A stretch of 64,000 nucleotides of DNA from Anaeromusa acidaminophila DSM 3853. Lineage in GTDB: Bacteria; Bacillota; Negativicutes; Anaeromusales; Anaeromusaceae. This document shows positions 4,736 through 43,546 of this stretch, piece after piece; the first letter of the stretch is position 1, and each line of letters opens with the position of its first letter. The DNA is taken from assembly GCF_000374545.1 (NCBI RefSeq), contig NZ_KB894601.1, forward strand, positions 1 to 64,000, in the 5' to 3' direction. Position numbers and translations under genes: made by a program. The notes below the pieces were generated by a model. The model had not been told where the DNA came from. It searched no databases and was given only the letters and a program-made list of their open reading frames with translations.

Positions 4736-5395
4736 TTAGCGATTTTCGGGCATGTGCGCCGAAGAAAACTTCATTTCCGAGGCAACGTCACGGACAAAGC
4801 GGCTGAGAGGAAATGAAGCGTCCGTTTTTTCTCTCAGTCGAGAGAATAAGACGTCGTGAAACACATAGTCTTCCATTAAAAAAATATGAGTGGCGTCATT
4901 CGTGAAAAACGCGCTGCCTTCGTTAGTAGTAGTATGACCGTAAAGCAGATCGCGGCTGTCGACGGAAAGAATAAACCATTCTGCAGGCGTTTCCTGCTTG
5001 TGGAATTTCAAAGCGCGGTGTGAGGCGAGAGGCGGGAGCGGCTGTTCTACCTGAAAGGTGATGCCGCCGAGTGTGCAGCCTCGTGCGACGCAGGCTTGCA
5101 GTTCCGGCAGCAGCTCTTGGTATAAGTCGTCCCAAAGAGAGACGATAATTTTATCGGCAGCTTCTTGTAGCAGTTGTCGGCAAAAAGCAAGAATAGGCTC
5201 GCGCCCACGCACCGTGGAAACATAACGTTCTTCCTGAGGCTGTTCTTCCAGACGACATAGTTTATCTGCCAACTGTCCGTAAGAATGAGTCCATTGGCTG
5301 CGGAGCTGCTCTAAAAATACGGTAGCTGGTAACGGTGCATAGGCTTTGGTGCCATCGCTGTCGGCTTCCAGCATCACGACGCCTCGCTCGGTATA
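4736..5395 (-). pseudogene. TrmB-family regulator, C-terminal part, split by the prophage
   Basis: Host-coded residues read from 5392 down to the stop at 4736-4738 (about 218 residues, from TERGVVMLEADSDG). They match the linker and effector half of TrmB regulators: LEQL coiled linker, then RGREPILAFCRQLLQEA, KIIVSLWDDLY and LPELQACVARGCTLGG. The DNA-binding half is 33.6 kb away at 39041-39208. The open frame continues upstream into phage DNA and could start there, but that leader is not native. Joining the halves at TATA restores one 274-residue frame. The regulator is therefore probably inactive in this lysogen. Confidence 0.85.
5392..5395. repeat. Left copy of the target duplication (TATA)
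   Basis: TATA here and at 39040-39043 flank the prophage. Removing the prophage plus one copy joins the two trmB pieces in frame. Mu-family transposition usually duplicates 5 bp. Only 4 bp match exactly, so either the duplication is 4 bp or one base has changed. Confidence 0.75.
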
Positions 5396-9037: not shown

Positions 9038-9190
9038 ATGATTCTATGTATCGGCATCATACGCCACGGAGTAAAAACCGTAACATATATTCAAGACGGG
9101 CGCGTAATACTTAAAACCACATTAAGCCAACCGCCGCGCCCCCCCAAGGGAACTGCCGCAAAACGACCGAGTGATGCTTATGTACAATGA
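9038..9190 (+). CDS. Small ORF before the transposase gene
   Basis: 50 residues, ATG at 9038 preceded by GAGGTGAT. It reads MILCIGIIRHGVKTVTYIQDGRV and ends within the start region of the transposase gene (overlap about 20 bp), so the two may be translationally coupled. The only support is its ribosome-binding site and tight spacing. No family recognised. Confidence 0.45.
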   Translation: MILCIGIIRHGVKTVTYIQDGRVILKTTLSQPPRPPKGTAAKRPSDAYVQ

Positions 9191-11099
9191 GGCATTAACG
9201 GTCAAAGAAGTTGCTAAGTTGCTTGGGGTTTTAGAAAGAAGGATTCGGCGCCGAGTCGAACGAGGTGAATACCCGAACGCTACCCGCGAGAAATCCAATA
9301 AAGGCGGCAGTGAACTTATCAAAATTCCGCTTTCAGACCTGCCCGATGATGCGCAAACGTCCTATTTAAGGCAAAAAGGGCTTATTCAAAACCAAATTCC
9401 AGACGATGGCGGCGAATTCGCCAAGGCCCCGGAGACAAAACGCAATGTGGCCCTGGAACGCCTTGGCATTCTGCAAGCATGGGACAAGTACCTTTGGGAC
9501 AATCGGGAGCGGGCGGAAAAGACGAAGCTGAGCGAAGAATTTGCAGCGGCAACCAGCCTGCCGAACGGCAAGCGCGTATCCATGAAAACCCTGTACCGCT
9601 GGCAAAAGGACTACCGCGAAAACGGACTTTGTGGCTTATTGCCTGACTGGGGGCGGCGCGATGATCGGCACTCCATAGATGATGCAGCCTATGAATATTT
9701 TTGTGCGCTGTATCTTACGGAGAAAAAGAGATCCGTCCGGTATTGCTACGACCTGTTAAAGAGCAAGGCGCTTGAAATGGGCTGGTTAATTCCCGGCTCG
9801 GTAAAAACGCTGCAGCGAATTGCCAATGAAATTCCCGAAGCGGTGCGAGTTGCCGCTTGCGACGGTAAAAAAGCGGCTTACGACAACTGCCTGCCGTACA
9901 CCGAGCGGGACATAGAAAGCGTTAAAGGCAATCAAGTGTGGGTCGGCGACCATTTTATCGGAGACTTTTTCATCGCCGGACCTAAAAAGAAAAAAGACGG
10001 CGGCACAATCTGGACGCGCCCCTGGTTTACCATGTGGATGGACTTTCGCAGCCGGAAGATGGTTGGCTGGCATATTGACTTCACCCCGTCCACCGGAACA
10101 ATCATTGCGGCGTTTGCCAATGCCGCTCTAAATCCCAATATTGGGCTGCCGCAAGAAATACTTACCGACAACGGCCGCGACTATTGTTCCAAAGAATTTG
10201 CTGGCCGAGGCCACAGAAAAATTGCGGACGAACAAGAAGAACGCCGGGTCAAACCACTAATTGAACACCTGGGCGTTGGTGCACATTTTGCCATTCCAGA
10301 AAACGCAAGAGCCAAGCCGATTGAAAGAGAGTTTAGAACTTTTGCCGAGCATTTTTGTAAAGAGTTCGCCTCCTATTGCGGCTCCCGCCCGGAGGCGCGG
10401 CCGGAAGACTTGGAAAGCACTCTTAAAGGATTGCCGACATATAACCTCACCATGGACGACTTAAAGCGGCTTTTTTCGGACTGGGTGCAGTATGTGAAAA
10501 ACAAACAAGTATCCGAAGGCAAAGGACGCAAAGGAGAATGCCCCGATGAGACATTCGCCAGGACGCGGCTGCCGCTTCGGCTGGCTCCGATGGAAGCCAT
10601 GCGGCTTCTCTTCCAGCGCCATACCCAGGCGGTCAAGGTCAATCGGTGCATGGTCAAATTCCGTGGTCAAAACTATTTTCATGCCGACTTGGCGCTGCAT
10701 AAGGACAAACACGTATATATCCGATACCGCGAGGAAGATTTAAGCGTCGTCAGCGTCTATAGCTTAAAAGATGAATGGCTGCTCGACGCGCAGATCACCA
10801 GCGCCCTGCCGGCTTTCGGAGCAACGCCGGAGCAGTTTGCAGTCGAGGGGGCCAAAAAGAAAGCGGCACGAGAAAAAATCTACAAGCACCCGAGCATGCA
10901 AGCCGCCAAGAAAACAAAGGTAGACAGCCTAGAGACGGAACTTGCCCGCCGCAAGCGTCTGGCATCGCCGGAAACGCCAGCCGACAATGTGGTCATTCCG
11001 GTAGCTGTCGGACAGAACATCCTCGATTCCGCACGCCAGCAAAGCGGTCGGAAATCACGGCGTAAAATCGACATTATGAGCGTATTGAGCAAAAATTAA
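9171..11099 (+). CDS. MuA-like DDE transposase
   Basis: 642 residues. A winged-helix DNA-binding domain leads (NEALTVKEVAKLLGVLERRIRRRVERGEYP), then a second HTH region (KTLYRWQKDYRENG). The integrase core carries the DDE triad in VWVGDHFIGDF, ILTDNGRDY and RAKPIEREFRTF, and a Mu-type C-terminal beta-barrel region plus basic tail follow. It cuts and joins the prophage ends during integration and replicative transposition. GTG 9171, ATG 9174 and ATG 9180 are all possible starts; none has a strong ribosome-binding site, which fits coupling to the upstream small ORF. Confidence 0.95.
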   Translation: MMLMYNEALTVKEVAKLLGVLERRIRRRVERGEYPNATREKSNKGGSELIKIPLSDLPDDAQTSYLRQKGLIQNQIPDDGGEFAKAPETKRNVALERLGILQAWDKYLWDNRERAEKTKLSEEFAAATSLPNGKRVSMKTLYRWQKDYRENGLCGLLPDWGRRDDRHSIDDAAYEYFCALYLTEKKRSVRYCYDLLKSKALEMGWLIPGSVKTLQRIANEIPEAVRVAACDGKKAAYDNCLPYTERDIESVKGNQVWVGDHFIGDFFIAGPKKKKDGGTIWTRPWFTMWMDFRSRKMVGWHIDFTPSTGTIIAAFANAALNPNIGLPQEILTDNGRDYCSKEFAGRGHRKIADEQEERRVKPLIEHLGVGAHFAIPENARAKPIEREFRTFAEHFCKEFASYCGSRPEARPEDLESTLKGLPTYNLTMDDLKRLFSDWVQYVKNKQVSEGKGRKGECPDETFARTRLPLRLAPMEAMRLLFQRHTQAVKVNRCMVKFRGQNYFHADLALHKDKHVYIRYREEDLSVVSVYSLKDEWLLDAQITSALPAFGATPEQFAVEGAKKKAAREKIYKHPSMQAAKKTKVDSLETELARRKRLASPETPADNVVIPVAVGQNILDSARQQSGRKSRRKIDIMSVLSKN

Positions 11100-11111: not shown

Positions 11112-12065
11112 ATGTTAGCAAATGCAATGGTTCAACAGGAGGCCACTATCGACATCCAGGCGGTACGCGAAAGCCTGAAAACATATATTGAAACAACCGG
11201 AAAAACCCAGTCTGAAATAGCCAGAAGCGTAGGCGTTTCCGGCTCTCGAATCAGTCAATTCTTAAAAGGAACTTACCCTGGAGATAACGAGCAGCTAGCC
11301 TATTCCCTGCAACAAATGATGAGTGTGGACACGCGCCGCCAGCAGACGGTAAAAAAGCCGGGTTTCGTTGTCACCACTACTGCCAAGGAAGTGGCCACAG
11401 TGGCACGCTACACCCATGAACATACAGATATCGGCGTAGTTTACGGGCCGGCCGGCATCGGCAAAACCATGGCGCTGCAGCAATACGCACAAGAATATCC
11501 ATCCGTTGTTTTTATCACGGTGGACGTAACAACATCTAGAGCCAAGGCGCTGCTGGAGGAAATTGCAGATAAAATCGGCACAAAATCGTCGGGCACGCAG
11601 GCCGCCATTAAACGCGGCATTGTATCCGAGCTGCGCGGATCGGGGCGCATGGTCATTCTTGATGAAGCGCAGCACCTGACCTATGAAGCGCTGGAAGCCT
11701 TACGCACCATCTTGTACGACGCCTGCGGAGTTGGCATTCTGCTTTGCGGTAATGAAACCATCTATTCCAACATGGTCGGAAAGCGAAACGCCCCGTTCGC
11801 GCAGATTTTCTCCCGCGTTGGCATCAACCGGGGCATAGGGAAAAAGGTTAGCCTGGAGGATATCCGAAAGATTGTATGTCAGGATCTACCTGTATCGGAA
11901 GAATGCGTGCAATACTTCCATTCGGTAGCCAACAGCAACGGCGGAATCCGCCTGGCGGTGAAACTGTTCGTGCTGGCCTGGGAAACCGCCAATCGGATTG
12001 GCGAGCCTATCAATTTGGACATTCTCGCGTCGGCATCGGAATTTTTGATGCAGCATAATGCGTAA
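11112..12065 (+). CDS. MuB-like AAA+ target-capture ATPase
   Basis: 317 residues with GGAGGTG upstream. An N-terminal XRE-like HTH (QSEIARSVGVSGSRISQFLKG, residues 36-56) precedes the ATPase, as in MuB. Walker A is YGPAGIGKT, Walker B is MVILDEAQHL, and sensor-like LLCGNE follows. MuB binds target DNA, stimulates MuA and gives target immunity. The tight spacing with the transposase gene (12 bp) is the classic A-B pair. Confidence 0.93.
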   Translation: MLANAMVQQEATIDIQAVRESLKTYIETTGKTQSEIARSVGVSGSRISQFLKGTYPGDNEQLAYSLQQMMSVDTRRQQTVKKPGFVVTTTAKEVATVARYTHEHTDIGVVYGPAGIGKTMALQQYAQEYPSVVFITVDVTTSRAKALLEEIADKIGTKSSGTQAAIKRGIVSELRGSGRMVILDEAQHLTYEALEALRTILYDACGVGILLCGNETIYSNMVGKRNAPFAQIFSRVGINRGIGKKVSLEDIRKIVCQDLPVSEECVQYFHSVANSNGGIRLAVKLFVLAWETANRIGEPINLDILASASEFLMQHNA

Positions 12066-12431: not shown

Positions 12432-12929
12432 ATGACTAGAAAACGATTCACAGAACCAACATTGAAATCCTGGGAGGAAGTAGACCTCCACATGAAGGAA
12501 ATCGGCGAACTAGAGCTTGATTTACTAAACATCGAAGGAACCATGAACCAGAAGATTTCAGACGCCAAACTGGAAGCTGAAATAGAAGCCAAACCACTCA
12601 AAGACCGCAAAGAGCTTTTGGCCCGCGAAATAAAGGACTTTGTAGAAAACCGCCGCTGTGAAATTATCGGCAAGACCAAAAAAATGAACTTCGGTCAGCT
12701 CGGATTCCGCCAAAGCACAAAAGTGGTTATCCCTAAAGACCAAGCGAAGGTACAGGCCATTATCGCCGTCCTTAAAGCCAAGGATATGCTGGATTGTGTC
12801 AGCATCAAAGAAGATGTAAACAAAGATGCGCTGCGTGCCTACCCCGATGAAGTAATTGCCGCTGTGGGAGCCAGGAAAAAAGTTGAGGACGTATTCTGGC
12901 TGGAGCCGGATTACGAAAAGCTCAAATGA
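12432..12929 (+). CDS. gam: Mu Gam-like host-nuclease inhibitor
   Basis: 165 residues with the Gam signature: a long N-terminal coiled coil (LHMKEIGELELDLLNIEGTM), then a core with CEIIGKTKKMNFGQLGFRQ and a closing VFWLEPDYEKL. Gam is a Ku-like dimer that binds double-strand ends and shields linear phage DNA from host exonucleases. The stop overlaps the next start (ATGA). Confidence 0.88.
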   Translation: MTRKRFTEPTLKSWEEVDLHMKEIGELELDLLNIEGTMNQKISDAKLEAEIEAKPLKDRKELLAREIKDFVENRRCEIIGKTKKMNFGQLGFRQSTKVVIPKDQAKVQAIIAVLKAKDMLDCVSIKEDVNKDALRAYPDEVIAAVGARKKVEDVFWLEPDYEKLK

Positions 12930-13102
12930 TATGCAAGCGCTGCGGCAAAGAAATGATTCGCGGCTACAGCCGCCAATACCGCCACCAGGTTTATCTTTGC
13001 GTGCGCTGCGGCTGGGCGGCTTACCTGGACTATAATCGCGGCCGGACTATCGTAATCTGGCCTGGAAGACCACTGCGGAGGTATATAGCATGCGGACAGT
13101 AA
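12926..13102 (+). CDS. Small zinc-ribbon protein
   Basis: 58 residues, start overlapping the Gam stop (ATGA). Two CxxC pairs, CKRC at residues 3-6 and CVRC at 25-28, form a likely zinc ribbon, followed by a basic tail (GRPLRRYIACGQ). It overlaps the GemA start by 13 bp, so it is part of a tightly coupled operon. Function unknown. Confidence 0.62.
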   Translation: MICKRCGKEMIRGYSRQYRHQVYLCVRCGWAAYLDYNRGRTIVIWPGRPLRRYIACGQ

Positions 13103-13539
13103 ATAAACGGGATTTCGGACTGACGAACAAGCAGCTTGCTCTTGTACATCTTGCCAAAAAGGAACTTGGATTAACAGAAGACGATTATCGCAGTGTGCTG
13201 CAGCTCTACGGCGGAGTTGATTCTGCCAAGCACCTGCGCCTGGATGGCTTTGAACGGGTGATGGAACAATTTGAACGCCTGGGGTTTAAAAGTACGGCGG
13301 GTAAAGGCTTCAAACAGCCGTGCCACGCGAAGAGCCGCGATGCGGACGGGAAACCTTACCCGGCCCAGCTTCATATGATCCGGCATCATTTTGAACAGGT
13401 TGGTTTCACAGAAACGGAGCGGCAGCAAGGATTTTGCCGCAGAATTATTAAAAAACCGTGGCCGCAAACAAGGGCGGAAGCGAACAAAATCTTTGAAGCG
13501 CTCAAAGCTATGCTTGCCAGGGGATACAAACCACAGTAA
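13090..13539 (+). CDS. GemA-like protein (DUF1018, Mu gp16)
   Basis: 149 residues with GCGGAGG upstream. The N-terminal part (LTNKQLALVHLAKKELGLTEDDYRSVL) and the QLHMIRHHF ... RRIIKKPWP section match the GemA/DUF1018 family. In Mu, GemA affects host gene expression and DNA topology. The order Gam, GemA, Mor matches many transposable phages. Confidence 0.85.
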   Translation: MRTVNKRDFGLTNKQLALVHLAKKELGLTEDDYRSVLQLYGGVDSAKHLRLDGFERVMEQFERLGFKSTAGKGFKQPCHAKSRDADGKPYPAQLHMIRHHFEQVGFTETERQQGFCRRIIKKPWPQTRAEANKIFEALKAMLARGYKPQ

Positions 13540-13559
13540 AATAAAAGGTGGTGAATTTT

Positions 13560-13907
13560 TTGATTGACGAAGAAGTAAAAAACAGACTGCGCGAAAACGT
13601 CGGCCTTGAAGACTTGCGCGAGCTGTCGCCGGCGCTCATGCAGGCGGTTGATATTATCGGTCTTGAGCGATTCGTCGACTTATGCTACGTCATTGGCGGC
13701 CTAAGTATTTATGTACCGAAGTTTGAAAGCATTGTAGCGGCCGCGCGTGACAGGCTCATCTTGAAGGAGTTTAGCGGATACAATTACAGCGAACTGGCCA
13801 TGAAATACAGCATCTCGGAAGTATGGGTCAGGCAGATTGTGGCCAAGGCGAAATTCGAGGAAAACTCCATTTCCCTGTTCGGAGAATCCGATACTAAAGT
13901 TTCCTAG
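13560..13907 (+). CDS. Mor-family transcription activator
   Basis: 115 residues. I favour the TTG at 13560, placed 6 nt after AAAGGTGGTG; GTG codons at 13548 and 13551 lie inside that sequence. It has the Mor/C architecture: a dimerisation part (LRELSPALMQAVDIIGLERFVDLC), the GGLSIYVP strand, and a C-terminal HTH (YNYSELAMKYSISEVWVRQIV). It should activate the middle or late transcript that begins just downstream. Last gene of the early operon. Confidence 0.86.
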   Translation: MIDEEVKNRLRENVGLEDLRELSPALMQAVDIIGLERFVDLCYVIGGLSIYVPKFESIVAAARDRLILKEFSGYNYSELAMKYSISEVWVRQIVAKAKFEENSISLFGESDTKVS

Positions 13908-32553: not shown

Positions 32554-35500
32554 TTGGGAGGTCTTTTCGGTGGCGGCAGCACGATATCGCATGAAGAATC
32601 GCGAATCAACGCGCTGCGTATCCAACAAAGTACCTATGGGGCCGTCATCCCCATTGTTTTTGGTACGACTCGAATCACCGGCAATTTTTTGGATTATGAC
32701 GATTTTACCGCCATTCCGCACACGACGACGCAGTCCTCTGGTGGTAAAGGTGGCGGTGGAGTTACCCAGACGGAAACCACCTACACCTATACTACGGCAA
32801 TCATCATTGGCTTATGCGAAGCTATGGTGCAAAAGATTGGCCAAGTGTGGTCAGGGAAAGAAATTACCACGCTGGCGGCTAAAAGCCTGGAAATGTATCA
32901 AAACCAGATATGGCCATACATGCAGTCTAAGCACCCGGATAAGGCGCTGACATACAAAGACACAACGTATGTGGCCGGAGTAATCGACCTCGGTTCTTCG
33001 GGGGATATCCCAAATCTTTCTTTTGAAGTATTTGCGCTGTGCCAATACGGGCGCGGGATTATCGACGCTTTGCCGACAGACGTCATCCGCGAGCTGCTGG
33101 TCAACGACCAGTTCGGTATTGACTTCCCGGTATCGTGCATAGGCGATTTAACGTTATACACTTCCTATTGCATCGCAAACGGCCTGTTTATCTCCCCTGC
33201 TTTTACTGAACAAAAGGAATGCCGGGAAAATATCACTGATATATTGCAATGCACAAACAGCGAGGCGGTATGGAGCCAAGGAAAGTTAAAAATCGTACCA
33301 TATGGGGATGAAGTGGTTTCGGGAAATGGCGTGACATACAACCCGCCGCCCGCTCCCTGGTACGATTTGGATAATAACGACTTCCTTCCTGATGATGACG
33401 AAATGCCTGTCATCTGTAAGCGAAGCAGAACTGCCGATGCCTATAATATTCAGCCGTTCGAGTTTTTAAGCAGGGCCAATGGCTACAACATTGAAACTGA
33501 CGACGTGAAGGATGCCGCCAACATTGGCATGTTCGGGCCGCGACCGGCTGAACCAATTTCGATGCACTTTTTTTGCGATAAGCAGGCAGCCAAAACGGCA
33601 GCCCAGGGAATTCTGCAGCGAAAGCTCTATAAACGGAATCAGTACGAATTTAAAATAGGCTGGAAATATTACCGCCTGGAGCCAATGGACATCGTCACGC
33701 TTACGGAAGAGAATCTCGGCTTGGTTAAAGAGCCGGTGCAAATTGTTAGCATTGAAGAAATCGACAACGGCCGGTTTCAAGTTGTGGCCGAAGAGTGCCC
33801 GGCTGGCGTCCATGGCATAACGAAATATCCTTGCAAAGACGCTGAACGATCCCATATAAACTACAATTGCAGTCCTGGCGAGGTAGCGACTCCGATTATC
33901 TTTGAACCGCCGGCGGAAACTGTACAAAATGGCCTGGAATTATGCGTGGCCACTTGCGGCGGTACGAGTGATTTCTGGGGCGGCGCGTGCGTCTGGGTAA
34001 GCTATGACGGCGACACTTATAAGCAAATAGGGAGAATCACAGCTCCAGCCCGAATCGGCAAGTTGATTACAGCACTGCCGGAGGGGTACTCCAAAGATTA
34101 TCAGAACAAACTGAGCGTGAAGCTGCAGGGCCGCGCCGATCTGCTCAGCGGTACTGCGGCTGATGCGGATATGAAAAATACTTTGTGCTATGTTGACGGG
34201 GAGTTTATCTCTTACGAAACGGCTCTTTTAAAGGGCGTCGCGCAGTATGATCTGTACGGGCTGCGCCGTGGAGCGTATGGGTCAGCTATCAAAAGTCATG
34301 CTGCAGGGAGCAATTTTGTCCGCGTGGACAATGCTATCTTTCATTATCCGTACCGTGTCGAAGATATCGGCCGCACCATTTTTATTAAGTTTACCAGTTA
34401 CAATATTTTTGGCGTGAGCATGCAAGAATTGAGCGAGGTTGACGCGTACAGGTACACGATACAAGGAGCCGAACAAAGCGTGCCGGCGGTTAGCTTCACT
34501 GTCACCCAAGACGGCGAAAAGCTGACTGCTTCTCTAGACAGAACCTTCTTGGATTCAAATAATAATAGCTTTTTCTCTTATGAATTACGCTTCGGCAGTT
34601 CTTGGGATTCTGGGGTTTTAATGGGAATATTCTCAGGTTCAAGATACACGTTTGACGCCCCGCAGGAAGGGACGCTCACCTTTTGGTTGCGTGCTGTTGA
34701 CAATAAAGGAAACGCTTCAAAGACGGCCGCCAGAGCTACGGTGAACGTGGTCGGGTTGCCTAAACGAAATGTATTGTTTGAACGTACCGACGCCCCGGAT
34801 GTTTGGGCCGTAGAGAATATGTATCGGGTGGAAAACGGTTACACGCTGCAAGGAATAAAGGTCCTGCGGGATTACGAAAAGTTTTTTGATATCTTTGTGA
34901 TTCCTCCTTATCTTACGGATTCTGCGTATATTTATTTGCCACTGATTGACCTCGGGGAAAATATCATAGAAAGTGACTGTTATTATATTGACCCCGTGGG
35001 TGAGTGGCATCTGCGCAGTGTAGAAACATTGCGGGATTACGGAAAGTTCTTTGATATCTTCGGAGCGCCTATTCACTATGTAACCCCAAAATATGCCGTT
35101 CAGACATTTGCGACCATCGACGTACAATATGACCACAAACAGAATGTTCGTTTAGAAACAGAGTATCGGGTCAGCTTCGACGGTAAAGTTTGGAGCGACT
35201 GGGTAACCTCTACACAGAAACAGTTTTATGGTCGTTTTGTGGCCATTCGCATCCACCCGGTTTCACTGGACGGGTTAACCAACACGGTAGTGCGCTCGGT
35301 AAAGGTCAGTATCGACGTTCCTGATCTGGAAGACCGAATCGTTAATGTAGATGTGCCGGCGCAAAAGACGCATGTAACTTTCCACCGTCACTTCACGCTG
35401 CCGCCGATGCTTGGGATATTCGCTCAAGATTTGAACGGAAAACAAGCGACCTGGCGCGTGTCGAATATTACAGAAACCGGGTTTGATATTGAGTTGCTGG

Positions 35501-35559
35501 ATGCTAGCGGCAATCTAATCGCAGGCAAATTACCATTAATAATTGCAAGGGGGTATTGA
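32554..35559 (+). CDS. Tail tip protein (J-like / GTA host-specificity type)
   Basis: 1001 residues from TTG 32554, 6 bp after the peptidase stop. The N-terminus (GGGSTISHEESRINALRIQQSTYGAVIPIVFG) and IGLCEAMVQKIGQVWSGKE match siphovirus tip attachment proteins. The middle has LYKRNQYEFKIGWKYYRLEPMDIVTL, and the C-terminal 300 residues contain fibronectin-like repeats (two YEKFFDIF / YGKFFDIF copies at about 773 and 830). It plugs the tail and probably positions the fibre proteins that follow. Confidence 0.85.
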   Translation: MGGLFGGGSTISHEESRINALRIQQSTYGAVIPIVFGTTRITGNFLDYDDFTAIPHTTTQSSGGKGGGGVTQTETTYTYTTAIIIGLCEAMVQKIGQVWSGKEITTLAAKSLEMYQNQIWPYMQSKHPDKALTYKDTTYVAGVIDLGSSGDIPNLSFEVFALCQYGRGIIDALPTDVIRELLVNDQFGIDFPVSCIGDLTLYTSYCIANGLFISPAFTEQKECRENITDILQCTNSEAVWSQGKLKIVPYGDEVVSGNGVTYNPPPAPWYDLDNNDFLPDDDEMPVICKRSRTADAYNIQPFEFLSRANGYNIETDDVKDAANIGMFGPRPAEPISMHFFCDKQAAKTAAQGILQRKLYKRNQYEFKIGWKYYRLEPMDIVTLTEENLGLVKEPVQIVSIEEIDNGRFQVVAEECPAGVHGITKYPCKDAERSHINYNCSPGEVATPIIFEPPAETVQNGLELCVATCGGTSDFWGGACVWVSYDGDTYKQIGRITAPARIGKLITALPEGYSKDYQNKLSVKLQGRADLLSGTAADADMKNTLCYVDGEFISYETALLKGVAQYDLYGLRRGAYGSAIKSHAAGSNFVRVDNAIFHYPYRVEDIGRTIFIKFTSYNIFGVSMQELSEVDAYRYTIQGAEQSVPAVSFTVTQDGEKLTASLDRTFLDSNNNSFFSYELRFGSSWDSGVLMGIFSGSRYTFDAPQEGTLTFWLRAVDNKGNASKTAARATVNVVGLPKRNVLFERTDAPDVWAVENMYRVENGYTLQGIKVLRDYEKFFDIFVIPPYLTDSAYIYLPLIDLGENIIESDCYYIDPVGEWHLRSVETLRDYGKFFDIFGAPIHYVTPKYAVQTFATIDVQYDHKQNVRLETEYRVSFDGKVWSDWVTSTQKQFYGRFVAIRIHPVSLDGLTNTVVRSVKVSIDVPDLEDRIVNVDVPAQKTHVTFHRHFTLPPMLGIFAQDLNGKQATWRVSNITETGFDIELLDASGNLIAGKLPLIIARGY

Positions 35560-35962: not shown

Positions 35963-36252
35963 CAAAACGATTTTTTCCTAAAGACTGCGGAATTGCTTTT
36001 GTGGCTGATGTGGCAATCGACGGCGACCATATAAGTGTGCCGGACTTCGTCTTTGAGCTAGACGGCAAGGAACATCAAATCACCGGCGGAGTCTTTGACG
36101 TTGTGGTTGGTGATACGATTTACATTACACCACAAGGGCTTCAAAAGGTGCCGGAAAAAGAGTACCCGGAACATTTATTTGAAAGTGGATCCGCTTACTG
36201 GCTTGTAAGTAAAACGAAAGACGACATTCTGGTATTGGAGGTAGAGAAATAA
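35959..36252 (+). CDS. Small tail-associated protein, unknown
   Basis: 97 residues, overlapping both neighbours by a few bases. MTKRFFPKDCGIAFVADVAIDGDHISVPDFVFELDGKEH, then strands ending in DDILVLEVEK: a compact beta protein. No family recognised. Tight coupling to the adhesin gene suggests a fibre adaptor or assembly factor for the DGR target. Confidence 0.6.
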   Translation: MTKRFFPKDCGIAFVADVAIDGDHISVPDFVFELDGKEHQITGGVFDVVVGDTIYITPQGLQKVPEKEYPEHLFESGSAYWLVSKTKDDILVLEVEK

Positions 36253-37334
36253 TGATAGTCATTCAAGCAAACAATTTCCCTCAATATAGTATTGGTGCCG
36301 ATGCCGTTTTTGAACCGCTCTTTTTGCCGCCGGATGGGAATAGAACGCGCTTTTGTATTGGATGGTCTGGGTTAGGCCGCTACACAGCCGGCACTCTCCG
36401 CCTGTGGCGCAATGGAGTAAGTTTAGCGCCGAATGTTGATTTTATCGAAGAAGATAATGGCATGTTCTATAAATTTACTACCGCCCCTACGGGAAAGCTC
36501 TTGGAATATATGGTTTCCTATGTACCGAGAGCGACCGATAAAGCCTTTGCAACTGGAACCGACGAAATGTTTCTGTTCCCTAACTGGTTGGGCGCGGTTG
36601 GCATTGGCGATGCCTTCTGGATCGGAAGACATGCAGCTTCAAGAAGTGATGCGTCAAATACGGCTGTCGGAACCTCAAACGTGCCGAGTTCACGGCGCAG
36701 TGTTGTTCCGTGGTGCTCGGTAGACTTTGCGACCGCCAAAAGTGCTTGCTTCGCCAAAGGAACCGGCTGGCATATCGTACAGAACCGCGAGTGGGCAAAT
36801 ATCGCACGCTGGTGCAAGCTCCTGGATATTTACCCGACAGGAAACTCGGCCAGCGGCGTAGATGGTATGGGCGTCGCTCATGCGCCCGATCCGACAGTAT
36901 CGGGAAGAGCGCTTACCAGCACCGGGCCAACGACATCCAGTCATAACTTGCTGCCGAGTGGCATATACGACCTAGTCGGCAATGTTTGGGAATGGATTGA
37001 TGGCGTACAGCTTCAAGGTGGTGTATTGTGGATTTTCGATGGCAACAATGCTTTGGTGACTACTGGGATTAACCCTACTTTTGGATCTTCTGGCGGCGCA
37101 TTTTCATACCTTCGTACAGACGCAAACCTTGTAAACGAATGCATCCCAGCCACGACCGGAGAATCTTGCAGAGGAAATGATGGTTTCTGGTTTAGTGCTT
37201 CCGGCGTTACCCAACTTCTAAGAGGTGGCGGCTGGGGCAACGGTGCCCTCGGCGGGCTGTTTACGTTCGGCGTCAACGGTGCCCCGTCGGGCTCCGGTAC
37301 GAGCGTTGGCTTCCGCCTCGCAAAGAGCATGTGA
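36252..37334 (+). CDS. DGR target: receptor-binding protein with C-type-lectin/FGE-like variable domain
   Basis: 360 residues. Residues 1-115 form a beta-rich N-terminal domain that probably docks on the tail. Residues about 118-360 match FGE-sulfatase/C-type-lectin-fold DGR proteins (FWIGRHAASRSDASN, WHIVQNREWANIARWC, YDLVGNVWEWIDG, LLRGGGWGNGAL, GFRLA). The last 34 codons are the variable repeat. Against TR, codons 327, 334, 340, 343, 347, 349, 351 and 352 differ; TR-coded N, D, N, N, N, D, N and I are now G, G, G, G, G, G, S and V. The fold holds the variable residues on a surface for ligand binding. It should sit at the fibre tip and set host range. Confidence 0.92.
   Translation: MIVIQANNFPQYSIGADAVFEPLFLPPDGNRTRFCIGWSGLGRYTAGTLRLWRNGVSLAPNVDFIEEDNGMFYKFTTAPTGKLLEYMVSYVPRATDKAFATGTDEMFLFPNWLGAVGIGDAFWIGRHAASRSDASNTAVGTSNVPSSRRSVVPWCSVDFATAKSACFAKGTGWHIVQNREWANIARWCKLLDIYPTGNSASGVDGMGVAHAPDPTVSGRALTSTGPTTSSHNLLPSGIYDLVGNVWEWIDGVQLQGGVLWIFDGNNALVTTGINPTFGSSGGAFSYLRTDANLVNECIPATTGESCRGNDGFWFSASGVTQLLRGGGWGNGALGGLFTFGVNGAPSGSGTSVGFRLAKSM
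37223..37323 (+). repeat. DGR variable repeat (VR)
   Basis: 101 bp aligned without gaps to 37733-37833 (offset 510). There are twelve differences at 37230, 37231, 37252, 37269, 37270, 37278, 37279, 37290, 37291, 37297, 37303 and 37305. Each is A in TR and G here. The last 18 bp (37306-37323) are identical and form the likely IMH where homing starts. Homology stops a few codons before the gene's stop. Confidence 0.95.
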
Positions 37335-37336
37335 TA

Positions 37337-37363
37337 ATCTGAAATCTGTAATCTGAAAATCTG
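37337..37363 (+). repeat. Four short ATCTG repeats between the DGR target gene and the Avd gene
   Basis: ATCTG at 37337, 37344, 37351 and 37359, a 7-8 bp period (AATCTGA-type units). They directly follow the target stop and run into the Avd ribosome-binding site. They are not self-complementary, so they do not form the hairpin seen after VR in some DGRs. Confidence 0.7.
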
Positions 37364-37375
37364 GAGGTTTTTAAA

Positions 37376-37714
37376 TTGGTATCTGACCTAGCTATTTGGC
37401 AAAAAATCGTGGATATGACTGCATACGTCATCCCGGTATGTAATAAATTTCCCAAGAACCAACGCTTCGTTTTAGGACAGCAAATTCAAAACAAATTACT
37501 GCAGTTGGCAACAACGACGATTGAGGCCAATAAAGCTAGGAATAAAACTCAATTACTTGATAAATTAGACACAGAATTGGATCAGTTTCGATTCTTAGTC
37601 CGGGTTGCTGCTACCTTAAAACTGATGCCAGGACAACAATATGAGAACATTGCTAAGATGACGGCAGAAGTAGGCCGTATGTTGGGCGGTTGGCAGCGGC
37701 GTTTTCGGGCATAA
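37376..37714 (+). CDS. avd: Avd-like DGR accessory protein (four-helix bundle)
   Basis: 112 residues from TTG 37376, with CTGGAGG upstream. All-helical and basic: LAIWQKIVDMTAYVIPVCNKFPKNQRFVLGQQIQNKLLQL, then ARNKTQLLDKLDTELDQFRFLVRVAATL and ENIAKMTAEVGRMLGGW. It matches Avd/bAvd four-helix proteins, which form a pentameric barrel that binds the reverse transcriptase and template RNA. It lies between target and TR, the classic order. Confidence 0.9.
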   Translation: MVSDLAIWQKIVDMTAYVIPVCNKFPKNQRFVLGQQIQNKLLQLATTTIEANKARNKTQLLDKLDTELDQFRFLVRVAATLKLMPGQQYENIAKMTAEVGRMLGGWQRRFRA

Positions 37715-37990
37715 ATTAGGGCGGCGGCTTATAGGTGGCAACTGGGGCAACGGTGCCCTCGACGGGCTGTTTACGTTCAACGTCAACAATGCCCCGTCGA
37801 ACTCCGATACGAACATTGGCTTCCGCCTCGCAAGCATGCAATTGCCCGAAGACGTCCGCTTCTCCGGTCGTCCTGTGCTCATGCTCTTGGAGCCGCCGTC
37901 CTTCCTCTCAGAGGTAAACAGCAAGATGTCAGCGTCCGGCTGGTAGCGTTTGCGAATGTGGGGCGACTTTTATTACTCAGGTGATAGTAT
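37715..37990 (+). ncRNA. DGR template RNA region (TR plus spacer)
   Basis: The interval between the Avd gene and the reverse-transcriptase gene holds no protein gene. It contains TR (37733-37833) and a 157-bp spacer that should be transcribed with it. In the Bordetella DGR the spacer is needed for priming cDNA synthesis. Exact RNA ends cannot be read here. Confidence 0.75.
37733..37833 (+). repeat. DGR template repeat (TR)
   Basis: 101 bp, 12 mismatches to VR, all at adenines. 22 adenines lie in this span (23 counting the A at 37731 just outside) and 12 of them correspond to G in VR. If read in the VR frame it is rich in AAC/AAT codons (seven Asn), the usual DGR design allowing many amino acids without stops. 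Confidence 0.95.
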
Positions 37991-38992
37991 TTGAAACGTT
38001 TTGGAAATTTATACGAAAAAATTTACGATTGGCAGAATTTAATCTCCGCCTATCAAAAAGCACGGCTAGGCAAACGATATAAAAGTGATGTGCTTCGCTT
38101 CTCTCTTAACCTTGAAGAAGAAATATGCAACATTCAGAACCACCTGATATGGGGAACATATAAACCAGGCGACTATTATTTGTTTAAGGTATATGAGCCG
38201 AAAGAAAGAGATATAATGGCCTTGCCTTTTAAGGATAGAGTGGTTCAGCACGCTCTTGTAAACGTCATTGAAGCGCTGTTTAACAGGTCTTTTATTTATG
38301 ATAGTTACGCTTGTAGAGTCGGGAAAGGCTCTCAGCGTGGAATGTTGAGAGCGCAGGAATTTATACGCAGGGCTGGTCCTGGTTGTTGGATACTCAAGGC
38401 TGATATAAAAAAGTTCTTCAATAATATTGACCATTCTATCCTTAAAAGAATACTTATAAGAAAGATAAAATGCCGCAAAACCCTTTGGTTATGCGGCCAA
38501 TATATTGATAAGCACGGAGGCAAGGCTGGAATACCTATAGGAAACTTGACAAGCCAGTTATACGCGAATATCTACCTGGACCAATTGGATCATTATGTTA
38601 AAGATATGCTCGGTATAAAATGGTATGTTAGATATATGGATGACTTTATGATTGTATGTAAAACAAAAGAAGAGGCATATAATTTAAAGAAACATCTTGC
38701 AACCTGGTTATGGGAAAACCTTCGTATGGAGTTTAACAGCAAAACCCAGGTGTTCCCCGAAAGGCAAGGAGTAAACTTCCTGGGCTATAGAATCTGGCAT
38801 AATGGTATTAAAATAAGACATACAACGGTGCGAAGGTTGAAAGGTAAAATCAAACGTTTTAAACGGATGAGGGTAAAAAGAAAAGCATCGGTAGCTGATA
38901 TTATACCGACGCTGATGAGTTGGCAAGGTATGGCAAAATGGGGGAATTGCAGGACGATTGAAAAGCGGATTTTTAAACTATTAAACGAATGA
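37991..38992 (+). CDS. DGR reverse transcriptase
   Basis: 333 residues from TTG 37991 with AGGTGAT upstream. Catalytic residues: D138 in LKADIKKFFNNID and YMDD at 215-218. The DGR-specific block I-G-N-L-T-S-Q (183-189) replaces the QGxxxSP of retrons and group II introns. The thumb follows, ending WGNCRTIEKRIFKLL. It copies TR RNA with errors at adenines to make mutagenic cDNA. The gene is clearly A+T richer than the tail genes, suggesting separate ancestry. Its stop is 47 bp from the phage end. Confidence 0.95.
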   Translation: MKRFGNLYEKIYDWQNLISAYQKARLGKRYKSDVLRFSLNLEEEICNIQNHLIWGTYKPGDYYLFKVYEPKERDIMALPFKDRVVQHALVNVIEALFNRSFIYDSYACRVGKGSQRGMLRAQEFIRRAGPGCWILKADIKKFFNNIDHSILKRILIRKIKCRKTLWLCGQYIDKHGGKAGIPIGNLTSQLYANIYLDQLDHYVKDMLGIKWYVRYMDDFMIVCKTKEEAYNLKKHLATWLWENLRMEFNSKTQVFPERQGVNFLGYRIWHNGIKIRHTTVRRLKGKIKRFKRMRVKRKASVADIIPTLMSWQGMAKWGNCRTIEKRIFKLLNE

Positions 38993-39043: not shown

Positions 39044-39208
39044 CTCGGCTAATGCGTTCAGAATGTCATAGATGCGGGTACGAGGGACGCCGGCGGTTTT
39101 GCTGACTTTATAGGCGTTGCTTCGTCCTAGGCGTAGAAGAGCTAAGTAGGTTTTTGCTTCATATTGTGTAAGGCCGAAAGTTTGTAACTCTTGGCAAAGT
39201 GTATCCAT
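39041..39208 (-). pseudogene. TrmB-family regulator, N-terminal DNA-binding part, split by the prophage
   Basis: 56 host-coded residues from the ATG at 39208: MDTLCQELQTFGLTQYEAKT, RLGRSNAYKVSKTAGVPRT and IYDILNALAEY. This is the winged-helix N-terminus of TrmB regulators. Translation now runs into phage DNA for 19 codons before a stop. The remaining 218 residues are at 4736-5392. The fragment may still bind DNA but lacks the effector domain. TrmB proteins sense sugars or other metabolites. Confidence 0.88.
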
Positions 39209-43157: not shown

Positions 43158-43546
43158 AGTAATACTCCTCCTTAATGCTAAGTCGGACTTACCAGAATCA
43201 GGGCCAGAAAGAGACAGTAAAAGCAACACAGTAAAACAAGCCGGACGAAAGTACTCCGGAACTTGCCAATGCGTTAGCAACTGCCTTATCCTCTTCTATC
43301 CGGACTATCACCGTCGGCACTGGCTTGTTACCAGTTCTGCTGACCTTTTTACGGTTAGGCAAAAAGCGCTCGCGGGCTCCCCGGCTGCGCCGGGATACCG
43401 CCGATGGGGAATTTCACCCCGCCCTGAGAATAAGTTCGCTTGCCTTTAGTATACTCTTTTGCGAGCGGGTGTCAACTCGCAAGAACAGGCAGGATTTTAC
43501 GGTGTACAGCGGGAATATAGGAGAACTACTAATTGGGGAGGCTATT
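43158..43546. other. Gap holding the ribB leader and a divergent promoter region
   Basis: The left part is the ribB leader, including the riboswitch. From 43431 to 43546 lies the upstream region of the DUF4337 gene and the ribB promoter. No further gene seen; the long open frame from 43325 crosses the riboswitch and is not credible. Confidence 0.6.
43290..43430 (-). promoter_or_regulatory. FMN riboswitch (RFN element) upstream of ribB
   Basis: Read on the minus strand from 43426, it shows the RFN core AGGGCGGGGTGAAATTCCCC, then ATCGGCGGTA. It also has the pairing arms through GGTCAGCAGAACTGG and GCCGACGGTGATAGTCCGGAT. It lies about 130 nt before the ribB start. Bound FMN should lower ribB expression. 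Whether it works by termination or by blocking translation cannot be settled by eye. Confidence 0.92.

Follow-up and report, generated by a model that had tools for sequence, protein, structure and literature searches.

We analysed a 64,000-nt stretch of the genome of Anaeromusa acidaminophila DSM 3853 (contig NZ_KB894601.1, positions 1 to 64,000; hereafter the window), and conclude that it very probably carries a complete diversity-generating retroelement (DGR), which forms the right-end cassette of a Mu-like prophage that is itself complete. On sequence comparison the cassette combines a template repeat (TR) and a variable repeat (VR) that differ at adenines only, a reverse transcriptase (RT) of the DGR clade with an intact motif, an Avd protein, and a lectin-fold target gene in which the VR lies. 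Directly beyond this target gene there is also an array of heptamers, recurring beside the VRs of related elements, which may serve as a mark directing homing from TR to VR. The parts of the cassette, apart from the array, are as follows.

36252 to 37334, plus strand: target gene, 360 aa, variable protein of the formylglycine-generating enzyme (FGE)/C-type-lectin kind (PF03781, 2e-7; phrog_2889, 5e-43; PDB 5vf4)
37223 to 37323, plus strand: VR, 101 nt, in the 3' end of the target gene, an ungapped match to TR with mismatches only at TR adenines
37376 to 37714, plus strand: avd, 112 aa, TTG start after GGAGG (PF22296 (bAvd), 4.5e-27; phrog_3206, 1e-31; PDB 4dwl and 8ub7_B)
37733 to 37833, plus strand: TR, 101 nt, intergenic, in the gap between avd and the RT gene
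37834 to 37990, plus strand: TR-RT spacer, 157 nt, defined by position only
37991 to 38992, plus strand: DGR RT, 333 aa, TTG start (RVT_1, 9e-24; phrog_1423, 8e-132; PDB 8ub7_A, 1e-56)

Repeats, reverse transcriptase and the A→G-only pattern

TR and VR align without gaps over 101 nt, with 89 identical positions and 12 mismatches. All 12 mismatches fall on adenines of TR, which has 22 of them, an outcome with a probability of 5e-10 under random placement; positions other than A show no differences, and the sequence changes end exactly at the repeat boundary. A sequence-only reading of this DNA had claimed a gap-free 101-bp pair with substitutions at TR adenines alone, and the alignment bears this out to the base. 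No third TR-like copy was found in the window or in the remainder of the 3.48-Mb genome, and no additional VRs were found in the genome.

The same reading had recognised an RT by its YMDD and IGNLTSQ motifs, together with an Avd-like gene, and both identifications hold: the RT keeps the two motifs and matches RVT_1, phrog_1423 and 8ub7, while Avd matches PF22296 at 4.5e-27. It had also named a dead RT frame as grounds for rejection; the frame is open, with the catalytic motifs intact. The closest solved structure to the RT is 8ub7 (1e-56), an entry that also contains Avd and which we take to be the complex of Bordetella phage BPP-1. In a tree the RT was placed among DGR RTs, and its nearest relatives, leaving out the IMG/VR copy of the same phage, are 47-49% identical. 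A second RT-like match in the genome, at C4, was rejected, being only 27% identical. By inference from the DGR family, the RT with Avd would copy TR RNA and misread its adenines, and the cDNA would then replace VR, altering residues of the lectin-fold protein.

The TR-RT spacer is presumably part of the template RNA, and the predicted RNA fold of TR plus spacer was weak (z -1.9). Predictions of promoters and terminators around the DGR cassette were not above chance. Separately, in many phage DGRs we observed common pieces in the TR-RT spacer, among them CAGAAG, CCAAGGGG and CAGTGCA, along with end-to-end pairing (by eye; TR 3' flanks L219, L229, L273, L275 and L276). These pieces are perhaps a template RNA core; the spacer of the present phage is less similar.

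All 12 VR substitutions are A→G, a feature absent from the sequence-only reading. Translated in the VR frame, TR gives GGNWGNGALDGLFTFNVNNAPSNSDTNIGFRLA and VR gives GGGWGNGALGGLFTFGVNGAPSGSGTSVGFRLA, so that most of the altered residues are now glycine. We used the TR/VR pairs detected in relatives fetched by RT, 144 other distinct pairs in all, as a comparison set for this pattern. Their changes were 51% A→G, 17% A→C and 32% A→T, in agreement with a published figure of about half A→G among DGR changes (PMC6642488). The context-adjusted probability of 12/12 A→G is 3e-4, and after context correction the VR ranks second of 145 for A→G. Base choice is over-dispersed between VRs after neighbour-base correction (statistic 301, versus 144 +/- 16 in shuffles), A→G counts in other VRs run as high as 20/22 and 12/13, and a beta-binomial fit leads one to expect about 0.7 A→G-only cases in a set of 144 pairs. 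We take the A→G-only pattern to be the tail of the normal DGR range. We rejected a new mechanism behind it because it falls inside the over-dispersed spread of the 144 other pairs. A different process such as base deamination, acting in place of DGR misincorporation, would suit the uniform changes and their low adjusted probability, but it is hardly credible given that A→G is the commonest DGR outcome both here and in the literature, that VRs nearly as one-sided exist and about one such case in the set would be no surprise, and that the changes halt exactly at the TR/VR boundary. Among relatives, one VR tends to share one change type beyond what neighbour context predicts, which a lineage-specific spectrum or selection could explain.

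Several features count against a working element. A single VR sequence turned up in the collections searched, with no independent phage copies carrying a different VR in viral contigs and no DNA-level match to the phage in phage records. That every change is A→G puts this VR at the margin of the spread normally seen. The VR 3' end, which reads CTTCCGCCTCGCAA, lacks a G/C-only stretch, and no hairpin with a GRNA loop was found 3' of VR, such a hairpin being expected there in DGRs (PMC3240598); both traits are of BPP-1 type, functional in that phage and not universal, and the T. denticola DGR is likewise without a G/C-only stretch at its VR end. The DGR might be pictured as a silent remnant that worked in an ancestor and no longer homes in this lysogen, an idea favoured by the lone VR sequence and by the missing hairpin, which efficient BPP-1 homing needs. 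We nevertheless think it improbable. The reading frames of RT, Avd and target are unbroken and the catalytic motifs are kept, TR and VR have no difference outside adenines, where a dead element would be expected to drift, and the hairpin is not uniformly present among relatives or among DGRs like that of Bacillus phage BalMu-1.

The target protein and its Mu-like phage

The nearest solved relative of the target, both by sequence (8e-14) and by predicted fold (1e-15), is TaqVP (5vf4), a variable protein from the DGR of a Thermus aquaticus prophage; in the fold alignment the two are about 22% identical. The fold model was built from 25 relatives and has a mean pLDDT of 59, with its best blocks at 75-90; after TaqVP, the fold matches are FGE enzymes, Mtd and TvpA. 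The target frame is open, and VR sits at the 3' end of this C-type-lectin-fold gene, as is looked for in a DGR. Upstream lies the following gene, then two small genes, then the target.

32554 to 35559, plus strand: tail hub/tip protein (PF13550; phrog_1101, 1e-138)

There is thus good reason to infer that the target is a receptor-binding tail-tip protein: it is predicted to have a C-type-lectin fold, it is located after the tail-hub gene, where receptor-binding proteins are commonly encoded, and its best fold match is TaqVP, with Mtd matching as well. The sequence-only reading had assigned it the receptor-binding role, and the fold, the neighbourhood and the structural matches are all of the kind that this putative role calls for. 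The altered protein would then probably sit at the tail tip and bind the host. A virion decoration protein, with no part in receptor binding, is rather unlikely for an FGE-type lectin beside the tail hub that most resembles TaqVP and also matches Mtd.

The prophage around the cassette is complete and Mu-like, as judged from its genes and junctions; the sequence-only reading had called it Mu-like. Its main features are these.

5387 to 5391, no strand: left target duplication CTCGG, 5 bp, from junction reading
5392 to 39043, no strand: Mu-like prophage, 33,652 bp, with inverted ends and an empty site in sister genome G001
9171 to 11099, plus strand: MuA-type transposase (PF09039, PF09299, PF02914; phrog_310, 8e-99)
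11112 to 12065, plus strand: MuB-type transposition ATPase (phrog_296, 4e-81)
12432 to 12929, plus strand: Gam (PF07352)
13090 to 13539, plus strand: GemA (PF06252)
13548 to 13907, plus strand: Mor (PF08765)
39044 to 39048, no strand: right target duplication CTCGG, 5 bp, from junction reading

The sister genome is uninterrupted at the site, matching the window up to 5390 and resuming from 39045, and junction reading gives the inverted prophage ends as TATAATGAGACATGAAGTTTGAGAA and TATAGCGCGACACGAAGTTTGAGAA. Further prophage genes include a repressor, terminases, portal, protease, tape measure and tail genes. Only 51 bp separate the RT stop codon from the right end of the prophage, which makes the DGR a terminal cassette.

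A DGR on a Mu-like phage is an already documented combination. Bacillus phage BalMu-1 (NC_030945.1) is likewise Mu-like, has a lectin-type target, avd, TR and RT in this order near its right end, an RT 43% identical to the one described here, and a heptad array 3' of VR. It differs in having holin and endolysin genes after the RT, A→N changes of mixed type, and an inverted repeat with a GGTA loop after the array (by eye). Chromohalobacter phage YPCBV-1, published as Mu-like, has a SUMF1-type protein, Avd and RT at its right end but, unlike the present phage, no heptad array at threshold (10/16, on the score defined below). Faecalibacterium phage Mushu and the Bacteroides hankyphage are also transposable phages with DGRs, and their virion DNA shows VR diversity (PMC5883640, PMC12135933), although their hosts and targets differ, that of Mushu being Hoc-like. 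The pool of mixed tropism that, according to the sequence-only reading, each lysogen could release would have precedents in these two phages. BPP-1 shares the order target, avd, TR, RT and has a homologous RT and Avd, whereas its record does not describe a Mu-like phage and its attachment site is a tRNA. Among 20 DGR contigs, many of the others being fragments, the PF02914 Mu transposase was found in two, one of which is this phage.

In the flanking host DNA, the insertion disrupts a TrmB-family regulator gene (4736-5386 and 39049-39208, minus strand), whose neighbours are an FAA-hydrolase gene on one side and a putative cyclase gene on the other. An FMN riboswitch (RF00050) lies at 43284-43435 on the minus strand; it and a tRNA are the only Rfam matches in the window.

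A heptad array beside the variable repeat

The array described in this section occupies the short interval between the target gene and avd.

37335 to 37363, plus strand: heptad array TAATCTG AAATCTG TAATCTG AAAATCTG, directly after the target stop codon and 12 nt past VR; proposed target mark

Its pattern is (W)AATCTG four times over, in steps of 7, 7 and 8 nt. The sequence AATCTGNAATCTG is found nowhere else in the genome, the array copies being its only ones. We found no prior description of heptads in DGRs in the open literature searched.

We scored chains of four TCTG units spaced by 7- or 8-nt steps, with a threshold of 13 of 16, in the flanks of related repeats. Scores of at least 13/16 occurred in 27 of 107 non-redundant VR 3' flanks (5 of which came into the set through the motif itself), where shuffles predict 0.45, and in none of the TR 3' flanks. 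Since kinship of the loci inflates such raw counts, we rely on clusters of RTs at 50% identity, with motif-fetched loci left out: an array lies 3' of VR in 9 of 22 clusters, this phage representing one of the nine, and 3' of TR in none. It was also absent from the next 70 nt downstream (0/157) and from upstream of VR (0/152). An autocorrelation that makes no use of the motif, run without motif-selected loci, peaked most strongly at lags 7 and 15 in the VR flanks, and the TR flanks showed no peak of comparable height. The array is found 3' of VR also in L004, L005, L010, L012, L013, L033, L067, L147, L219, L225, L227, L244 and L249; at L147 it stands at each of the two VRs of one DGR, while the TR has none. 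In some relatives a hairpin follows the array. In several groups the target gene apparently runs on through it (reading frames by eye), where codons would not account for a 7-nt step.

The array goes together with Avd. An Avd gene is present in the loci of 32 of 33 array flanks compared with 34 of 74 array-less flanks (Fisher 8e-8, kinship ignored), and the exception among the former is VHML, whose sister phage has an annotated Avd.

Scanning viral contigs for the plain pattern gave 52 stretches, of which twelve have a DGR RT. One of the twelve is this phage; in each of the remaining 11 an array lies no more than about 15 nt beyond the 3' end of VR, and TR has none 3' of it. The 40 stretches without a DGR RT are mostly generic heptamer repeats. 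Generic microsatellites of the form (AATCTGC/A)n occur often in viral contigs that have no DGR RT (L231, L246, L254, L262, L271 and others).

Another way to view the array is as an ordinary heptamer microsatellite, or as an element controlling translation of avd, and no target mark at all. The 40 scan matches without DGR RT would fit the first of these, and the second would fit the position of GGAGG (37363-37367), the avd ribosome-binding site, which directly abuts the last array unit. We find these explanations unlikely, though they deserve more weight than the other alternatives graded above. In many relatives VR and array lie 1.8-2.1 kb downstream of TR and far from avd, or within coding DNA; the array stands at the VR boundary in the nine RT clusters and never in adjoining stretches; and AATCTGNAATCTG is unique in the genome. 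Retention of the array by passive descent is a further rival.

What role might the array then play? The GC-only stretch of BPP-1 leads into a 21-bp element, the initiation of mutagenic homing (IMH) sequence, and the direction of transfer depends on five differences between this element and its TR counterpart; a GAAA-loop hairpin and this IMH lie at the position that the heptad array takes here. Taken by eye, the 21 nt read TCTGTGACCACCTGATTCTTG at VR and TCTGTGCCCATCACCTTCTTG at TR, that is, three times seven with five differences including a central CTG. We propose, by this analogy, to see in the array a fuller version of the BPP-1 IMH, a target mark absent from the template. With roughly even confidence, we suggest that the array 3' of VR is an IMH-type mark directing homing from TR to VR, and that the Avd-RT complex may read it. 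More tentatively, and a shade short of even confidence, a degenerate TCTG-core heptamer array with 7-8-nt steps could be the general cis target mark of Avd-dependent DGRs, equivalent to the 21-bp (3 x 7) IMH of BPP-1, giving retrohoming its direction and read by multimeric Avd-RT, with the hairpin an optional addition that is absent here. Speculatively, a ring-like multimer such as Avd would be well matched to a repeat whose step varies a little.

Four points argue the other way. The motif was defined only after being seen, the association with Avd ignores ancestry, 13 of the 22 RT clusters have no array at the threshold used, and BPP-1 itself scores only 10/16.

What is understood of target-template discrimination in DGRs still comes largely from a single phage, BPP-1, and the hairpin, the general feature in published work, was found neither here nor in several relatives. 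A conserved repeat that is excluded from the template, present in 9 of 22 RT clusters and nearly confined to loci with Avd makes a concrete candidate for the target signal. If the array is indeed a target mark, it would help to predict or place new DGR targets.

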